From: Geitlerinema sp. PCC 7407
GTDB lineage: Bacteria; Cyanobacteriota; Cyanobacteriia; PCC-7407
Assembly: GCF_000317045.1 (NCBI RefSeq)
Contig: NC_019703.1
Span: forward strand, 4,100,934 to 4,164,933
Length of the DNA stretch: 64,000 nucleotides
Reading direction: 5' to 3'
The first letter of the stretch is position 1, and each line of letters starts with the position of its first letter. Of the stretch, positions 20,685-21,729 are shown in pieces. The notes under the pieces were generated by a model. The model made no database searches and was not told where the DNA came from. It saw only the letters and a list, made by a program, of their open reading frames with translations. A program made the translations under genes and the position numbers.

Positions 20685-21302
20685 TCACGGCAGCTTGACC
20701 GTGGCGATCGCCCCAAATAGCAAGAACAGCCCGCCGCCAATGAAGGTCAGCAGGCGCTCTGAAATTCGGCCCGCGATCGCCCGTCCGCACAGAACGGCGA
20801 TCGCGGCGCAGATCCCGTGGCCCAGCACAGCCCCCAGGGTCACCCCCACAGGATTATTCGACGCGGCCAGCGCAATAGTGGCAAACTGCGTGCGATCGCC
20901 CCACTCCGCCACAAACGTCAGGGAAAACGCCTCCAGGCACACTGCCAGAGGATTGATCGCCACGCCATGCTTTGCTTCCTGGGCCTTGACTGTCTCAGCC
21001 GCCTCCTCCATCTCCTCCGGGTTCGGTACCGAAGACATCCGGCTGGCGTCGTAGAGCAGCTTCAGGCCAAACAGCGTAAACAGAGCAATTTCGGCGTACA
21101 CCACATACACCTTGGGCAGCAAAGACGCCGCCTGCCCAAAGAGCACCGAAATCACGGTCATGGCCGCTAGCGCTGCCAGCACTCCCACAAAGGTCAGCCG
21201 CCGGGAATGACGCATCGCCAGCAGCGCCGCAATAAAAAAGGTTTTGTCTCCTAATTCGGAAACCGTAATCAGCAATAGACCAGCCGTGAAAGCGGTCAGC
21301 AT
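20685..21302 (-). CDS. TMEM165/GDT1 (UPF0016) family Mn(2+)/Ca(2+) exporter, Mnx-like
   Basis: A 205-residue membrane protein with six predicted helices in two inverted repeats. Each repeat carries the cation-binding motif E-x-G-D-[KR]-[TS]: ELGDKTFF near residue 16 and EWGDRTQF near residue 126. Family members move manganese out of the cytoplasm; the Synechocystis homologue Mnx protects cells from Mn toxicity and supplies the thylakoid lumen. An in-frame start at 21425 would add 41 residues, but that codon lies inside a yybP-ykoY manganese riboswitch, so the ATG at 21302, preceded by GAGGAG, is chosen. The riboswitch itself supports manganese as substrate. Confidence 0.92.
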   Translation of the reverse strand: MLTAFTAGLLLITVSELGDKTFFIAALLAMRHSRRLTFVGVLAALAAMTVISVLFGQAASLLPKVYVVYAEIALFTLFGLKLLYDASRMSSVPNPEEMEEAAETVKAQEAKHGVAINPLAVCLEAFSLTFVAEWGDRTQFATIALAASNNPVGVTLGAVLGHGICAAIAVLCGRAIAGRISERLLTFIGGGLFLLFGAIATVKLP

Positions 21303-21397
21303 CTCGTCAAGCTCCTCTGCAAAGAAACGGAATGCAGATCTGCGAGCTTGACGAAAGCACAAACGCTTCACCAAGCTCACAGATCCCGTGAACTCAG
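21303..21397 (-). promoter_or_regulatory. Expression platform of the manganese riboswitch (SD-sequestering hairpin and alternatives)
   Basis: Read on the minus strand, CGTCAAGCTC (21353-21344) pairs perfectly with GAGCTTGACG (21314-21305), enclosing an inner TGCAGA/TCTGCA-type helix; the ribosome-binding GAGGAG lies in this hairpin just before the ATG. A third heptamer copy, GAGCTTG at 21378-21372, can pair instead with the same CAAGCTC. GTGAAG at 21371-21366 can pair with the 3' arm of the aptamer P1 helix. These options are mutually exclusive, as expected of a translational switch. Confidence 0.65.
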
Positions 21398-21542
21398 TGA
21401 AGGTCTCGCTTTCAAGTTCTCTCATGGGGGCAAAGCATTACTTTGCCCAGGTCAAAAACTTGCCATCTAAGCCAGGTTCATCACCAGTATGTTGACTTAG
21501 ATGCGCTGGTTGGGGTGGCAAACCAGCAGCTACTCCCCTTCA
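21398..21542 (-). promoter_or_regulatory. yybP-ykoY family manganese riboswitch aptamer
   Basis: On the minus strand the conserved elements come in order: P1 TGAAGG (21542-21537), the hallmark GGGGAGTAGC (21538-21529), P2 GCTGGTT/AACCAGC, P3 CATCTAAG/CTTAGATG (21503-21496 with 21471-21464) enclosing GTCAACATACTGG and AACCTGG, a P4 hairpin GGGCAAAG/CTTTGCCC (21448-21441 with 21435-21428), then AGCGAGACCTTCA closing P1 (21403-21398). This family binds Mn(2+) and is known upstream of Mn exporters including UPF0016 proteins, which is exactly the downstream gene here. Confidence 0.9.
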
Positions 21543-21729
21543 TAACCACGAAACATTCTACAGACCAAGCTCCCCAAGCTCAACGGTGTTTCTGCATAGA
21601 TACTCAGCATTGTGAAATTCTTTCCGCAGCGGCAGAGACCGCTCAGCCTCGAGGATTTCTCTAGTGAGCACAAGAATTTGGGATAAACTGAGTCTCAGTG
21701 CGCCGTCCTGCACACTCCACGAGGAAACC

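Follow-up and report, generated by a model that had tools for sequence, protein, structure and literature searches.

The water-splitting centre has manganese as its metal, and cells that lose the exporter Mnx are harmed by an excess of Mn. The locus described here raises the question of how synthesis of this exporter is controlled in cyanobacteria. Two papers on cyanobacteria name ManSR as the only established Mn regulation and leave control of the exporter open (PMC7020235, 2019; PMC11649195, 2024). A 2020 review citing Dambach et al. 2015 counts UPF0016 genes under yybP-ykoY in 328/333 strains (PMC7380456); these share the gene family and riboswitch class of the system below, but no expression platform is described in the relevant passages of that review, and Anabaena, the sole cyanobacterial example named there, is placed under ManSR.

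The window is the whole 64,000-nucleotide stretch of Geitlerinema sp. PCC 7407 DNA that was analysed. On its minus strand, a UPF0016/GDT1 gene with a 205 amino acid product has an untranslated leader extending from about 21548 to 21302. We consider it likely, at a probability of roughly 0.8, that this leader senses Mn2+ as a yybP-ykoY riboswitch and thereby switches on translation of the UPF0016 manganese exporter.

Aptamer and expression platform of the exporter leader

The gene, its promoter and the aptamer comprise the following features.

20685 to 21302, minus strand: mnx-type UPF0016/GDT1 manganese exporter, 205 aa (PF01169 GDT1 (UPF0016), E 1.6e-44)
21302, minus strand: exporter start codon, ATG
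21316-21312, minus strand: Shine-Dalgarno (SD) sequence AGGAG
21555 to 21583, minus strand: sigma-70-type promoter TTGAGC-17-TAGAAT, 9/12 consensus positions
21402 to 21542, minus strand: yybP-ykoY (Mn2+) aptamer (RF00080 match 21539-21428, 32.5 bits)
21538-21529, minus strand: aptamer L1, GGGGAGUAGC, equal to the RF00080 consensus letter for letter
21496-21486, minus strand: aptamer L3, GUCAACAUACU, equal to the RF00080 consensus letter for letter
21409-21402, minus strand: aptamer closing segment, GCGAGACC
21537 to 21542, minus strand: P1 5' arm UGAAGG, pairing with 21403-21398 in the P1-constrained fold
21397 to 21403, minus strand: P1 3' arm CCUUCAC, common to P1 and anti-P1

Transcription would be expected to start at about 21548, a few bases 5' of P1. 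A TAnnnT -10 element lies 8-35 bases 5' of the aptamer in 84/86 leaders (57% in the shuffled control), and a full -35/-10 pair is present in 41/86 (10% in the shuffled control).

The original prediction had assigned the leader to the yybP-ykoY family and the gene behind it to the UPF0016 exporters. Both assignments held: the PF01169 match identifies the gene, and the conserved L1 and L3, which face each other in the leader, agree with the consensus. The RF00080 covariance search that the prediction had proposed did return a match, with E 2.3e-7 over a 371-base stretch and 2.0e-6 over the whole 4.68-Mb genome, where the second-best match had E 2.6, leaving the leader match as the sole credible one; its 32.5 bits, however, fall short of the Rfam gathering score of 45. 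An Rfam scan of the leader at default cut-offs thus gave no match because of the threshold and not because the aptamer is absent. When 59 class relatives were searched with RF00080, 28 had a match and none reached the gathering score, the best being 42.8; a sub-cut-off score is a property of the whole cyanobacterial group. Default annotation can miss the element, as the RF00080 score lay below the cut-off in every relative searched.

The aptamer sits upstream of a Mn homeostasis gene (GDT1/UPF0016 here, mntP in one relative), and by analogy with the riboswitch family, the ligand of the Geitlerinema copy would be Mn2+. The Bacillus subtilis yybP and ykoY leaders, which are the type members of RF00080, have L1 GGGGAGUAGC and L3 CAACAUACU and form a Mn2+ ON switch. 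In Escherichia coli, Mn2+ raises translation of the genes behind the mntP and alx riboswitches (PMC9603457, PMC7838592); the mntP switch acts on translation (PMC9603457), and a different paper has it act on transcription as well (PMC7838592). The E. coli and Geitlerinema leaders share the aptamer family, but the former belong to a different phylum and precede genes for a Mn exporter or TerC, whereas the gene family here is UPF0016.

The expression platform occupies the interval from the aptamer to the start codon.

21353 to 21413, minus strand: hairpin I (anti-P1), -36.7 kcal/mol, 97.6% of alignment cells paired
21402-21388 with 21380-21366, minus strand: conserved core of hairpin I, the inner half being the trap hairpin I'
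21366 to 21386, minus strand: segment A, holding heptamer copy 1, GAGCUUG (21378-21372)
21337 to 21357, minus strand: segment B, holding copy 2, CAAGCUC (21350-21344)
21386-21366 with 21336-21357, minus strand: helix II (A:B anti-sequestor), about 20 pairs, -32.1 kcal/mol
21304 to 21320, minus strand: segment C, holding copy 3, GAGCUUG (21314-21308), and the SD AGGAG
21354-21344 with 21314-21304, minus strand: helix III (B:C sequestor), 11 uninterrupted pairs and an inner stem, covering the SD, -21.8 kcal/mol

Helices I, II, and III are mutually exclusive pairwise, except that I and III can coexist, and the folding energy of the leader lies 7.3 standard deviations below dinucleotide shuffles. 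The three heptamers, GAGCTTG twice and CAAGCTC once, are exactly where the original prediction had placed them, as are its anti-P1 motifs CTTCAC (21402-21397) and GTGAAG (21371-21366). Its trap, AGTTCAC (21394-21388) with GTGAGCT (21380-21374), is real and corresponds to the inner half of hairpin I. Two of the predicted helices needed adjustment: the copy 2:copy 3 hairpin is perfect but has 11 contiguous pairs rather than 10, and the copy 1:copy 2 anti-sequestor exists but is much longer than the heptamer. Two extra copies of GAGCTTG (21581-21575 and 21572-21566) sit in the promoter spacer, 5' of the likely transcription start; they were set aside as untranscribed and were not seen among the relatives' promoters that were listed.

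Conservation and coupled evolution of the segments

Leaders were collected from 80 named cyanobacterial loci and about 110 class genomes, yielding 177 platforms of usable length, of which 87 were non-redundant (<88% identity). All 80 of the named mnx loci fetched have the platform. A further 60 mnx leaders from the class genomes divided into 44 with the platform, two spurious matches, and 14 without the motif, and no aptamer was found near these 14. The platform consensus reads GCGAGACCUUCACURAGUUCAC - loop - GUGAGCUUGGUGARGUC in its 5' part, followed by spacer - CUCAUCAAGCUCACUCAG - spacer - CUGAGGAGCUUGA - start. The CTTCAC of the P1 3' arm is invariant or nearly so and pairs with GUGARG in 84-87 of the 87 leaders; core pairs are standard in about 79-87 leaders for helix I and about 68-85 for helix II.

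In principle, the coding sequence could begin within the leader, making the repeats a coding coincidence, as the mnx frame is open from an in-frame ATG at 21425, inside the aptamer, which would give 246 aa. This is extremely improbable: in-frame stops occur in 69/86 orthologous platforms, the upstream extension is not conserved, platform length varies freely among relatives, and the alignment of orthologous proteins begins at the 21302 start.

A partner-swap test compared the pairing energy of each leader's own segments with that of swapped segments over the 87 leaders, using as null tree simulations in which columns evolved independently. The own-minus-swapped difference was -2.29 (I), -2.37 (II), and -4.27 kcal/mol (III), own partners being the better ones, against null values of -0.02 ± 0.26, -0.34 ± 0.33, and 0.02 ± 0.32 kcal/mol, respectively; none of 80 simulations reached the observed value for any of the three helices. 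The conserved helix over the SD is an alternative to the presumably ligand-controlled helix, the arrangement expected of a translational riboswitch with a ribosome-site sequestor. When all 4950 column pairs were ranked by an average-corrected G statistic, pairs of helix I took ranks 1, 7, and 19, those of II ranks 6 and 30, and those of III ranks 3 and 22. The top-ranked pair, 21391:21377, belongs to the trap in hairpin I; it is U-A in 50 leaders and C-G in 27, with at least nine changes on the tree. In a 45-leader alignment, the paired cells, 97.6% for helix I and 89.4% for II, fell to 35-48% when the partners were slid by 1-3 columns, and nine of the 14 core pairs of helix II had changes on both sides. 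One leader (L145) provides a coordinated triple change, with A GAUUUGG, B CAAAUUC, and C GAAUUUG.

A per-pair tree test that kept column composition did not find single pairs significant individually, except for one, since there is little variation in most columns; it is therefore whole helices, and not single pairs, that carry the claim of coupled evolution. The MAFFT columns for helix III were shifted in leaders of the B = UCAUGCC clade, in which the start codon appears to be inside C, and were replaced by the partner-swap tests, which do not depend on them. Comparison of orthologous leaders had been suggested as a check on the heptamers, and the four segments of the scheme, those containing the heptamers among them, are both conserved and co-varying across cyanobacteria (87 leaders).

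Leaders in which B is UCAUGCC or UCAUGCUC (L154, L008, L009, L015, and L185) have an AUG within segment C (GCAUGAC or similar). This AUG appears to be the start codon in several of them, which would place the start codon itself under the sequestor.

The platform of the Bacillus subtilis yybP and ykoY leaders is a transcription terminator. Hairpin I could likewise be both the anti-P1 and an intrinsic terminator that Mn2+ binding prevents, and a terminator scan does mark hairpin I and its CGTTTGTGCT tail as resembling a terminator; moreover, 12/87 leaders have at least six T within an 8-base window behind it. Nevertheless, we regard control of transcription as quite improbable. A run of five or more T is missing behind hairpin I in 84/87 leaders, the run in the Geitlerinema leader being three, and a stem followed by a conserved U-tract, as an intrinsic terminator would have, was not found; the cyanobacterial platform differs from that of Bacillus in this respect and in its conserved ribosome-site sequestor. 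Termination would also leave unexplained why A evolves in step with B, and B with the ribosome site. In Synechocystis, the level of mnx mRNA stays the same under Mn excess (PMC11649195), which, if the element is present in Synechocystis, bears against a terminator and is as expected for translational control. We infer that the exporter is controlled at translation, and given such control, transcript profiling can miss the element.

Folding of the leader during and after transcription

In the energy models, the leader left to fold freely adopted I + III, with the ribosome site hidden. Forcing P1 broke only the outer six-pair half of hairpin I; I' survived, and in the finished Geitlerinema RNA helix III still formed and the SD stayed hidden. 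With P1 forced in finished RNAs, the SD was mostly paired in most leaders and clearly open in 7/170, as P1 leaves room for both I' and III. The original switching scheme is supported with one caveat: the competition of P1 with anti-P1 and of A:B with B:C is borne out comparatively (87 leaders), but energy models prefer OFF to ON in the completed leader, here and in most relatives, even when P1 is imposed. Either the switch is set during transcription, ahead of synthesis of the ribosome site, therefore, or Mn2+ or ribosomes stabilise the ON fold.

Translational control at equilibrium would require Mn2+ to stabilise P1 until P1 + II outcompetes every fold containing III. On simplified helices of the Geitlerinema leader, the ON fold (P1 + II, -89.1) is nearly equal to the trapped P1 + I' + III (-90.0), but equilibrium control is unlikely. 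P1 is compatible with I' + III, so a more stable P1 would not by itself expose the ribosome site, and the P1-constrained minimum is still sequestered. In addition, with P1 forced (176 leaders), A was paired with B at a median share of 0.09 in finished RNA versus 0.79 before C. According to the models, an equilibrium translational switch needs more than P1 stabilisation.

Switching in the course of transcription is the reading we prefer. In transcripts ending before C with P1 forced, A:B was ahead of A:I in 172/176 leaders, and A truly switched from I to B in 140/176, a test whose outcome follows in part from that complementarity itself. For the pre-C Geitlerinema transcript, the path from P1 + I' to P1 + II had a barrier of 2.7 kcal/mol and a gain of about 20, whereas the route to ON from hairpin I without P1 cost about 11.5 kcal/mol; in the finished RNA, the barrier from ON to OFF was about 16 kcal/mol. 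These direct-path barriers are upper estimates from a model without Mn2+ or tertiary contacts. In the energy models, then, the fold taken as ligand-bound exposes the SD when the segments appear in transcriptional order, and not at equilibrium of the finished RNA, which makes co-transcriptional switching more probable than switching at equilibrium.

At low Mn2+, segment A would capture the P1 3' arm to form hairpin I, and B, left free, would pair with C in helix III, hiding the SD. With Mn2+ bound, P1 would keep its own 3' arm, so that the outer half of hairpin I no longer holds A; the emerging B would displace the inner half I' to give the long A:B helix II. B would then already be occupied when C emerges, and C would be open to the ribosome; the decision would thus fall co-transcriptionally, after synthesis of A and before that of C. 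Extended to the group as a whole, this would be an ancient and portable relay of four segments, able to turn Mn2+ binding into translation only while the RNA is being transcribed, with a metastable ON state that outlives the mRNA, while the finished RNA is OFF at equilibrium even with a folded aptamer. We offer that extension tentatively, at slightly less than even odds. More than 80 diverged versions of one relay constitute a naturally replicated test of co-transcriptional switching.

Distribution of the platform

A covariance model built from the platform alone was run on 291 Cyanobacteriia and 38 sister-class genomes. It matched 143 of the former, the exporter itself being found in 191; the platform is common, but not universal, in Cyanobacteriia. 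With about half of the examined cyanobacterial genomes carrying it, such a riboswitch would directly answer how the exporter is controlled. There were no matches in the 38 sister-class genomes, and the A/B/C relay was thus not found outside the class in that search. The aptamer family is known, whereas the conserved expression platform has apparently not been described before: no published description of a cyanobacterial mnx riboswitch platform was found in the open-licence literature, and an earlier description elsewhere is possible.

Second platform copies lie mostly 5' of UPF0016 paralogs. Once, however, the platform was found before mntP, a Mn exporter unrelated to UPF0016: genome G126 has a full aptamer and A/B/C platform (L205, G126:C268, minus strand 1971-1660) in front of this gene (PF02659, E 3e-50). 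The module is therefore tied to Mn export and not to one gene, being attached to two unrelated Mn exporters.

Two further copies have other neighbours. A degenerate second platform (L212, G259:C107:514-585) precedes a cytochrome b561-type gene, 5' of an mnx copy on the same contig. A complete aptamer and platform (L204, G065:C84) stands before a short interrupted frame beginning MRRWILKAGS, which is apparently a broken gene.
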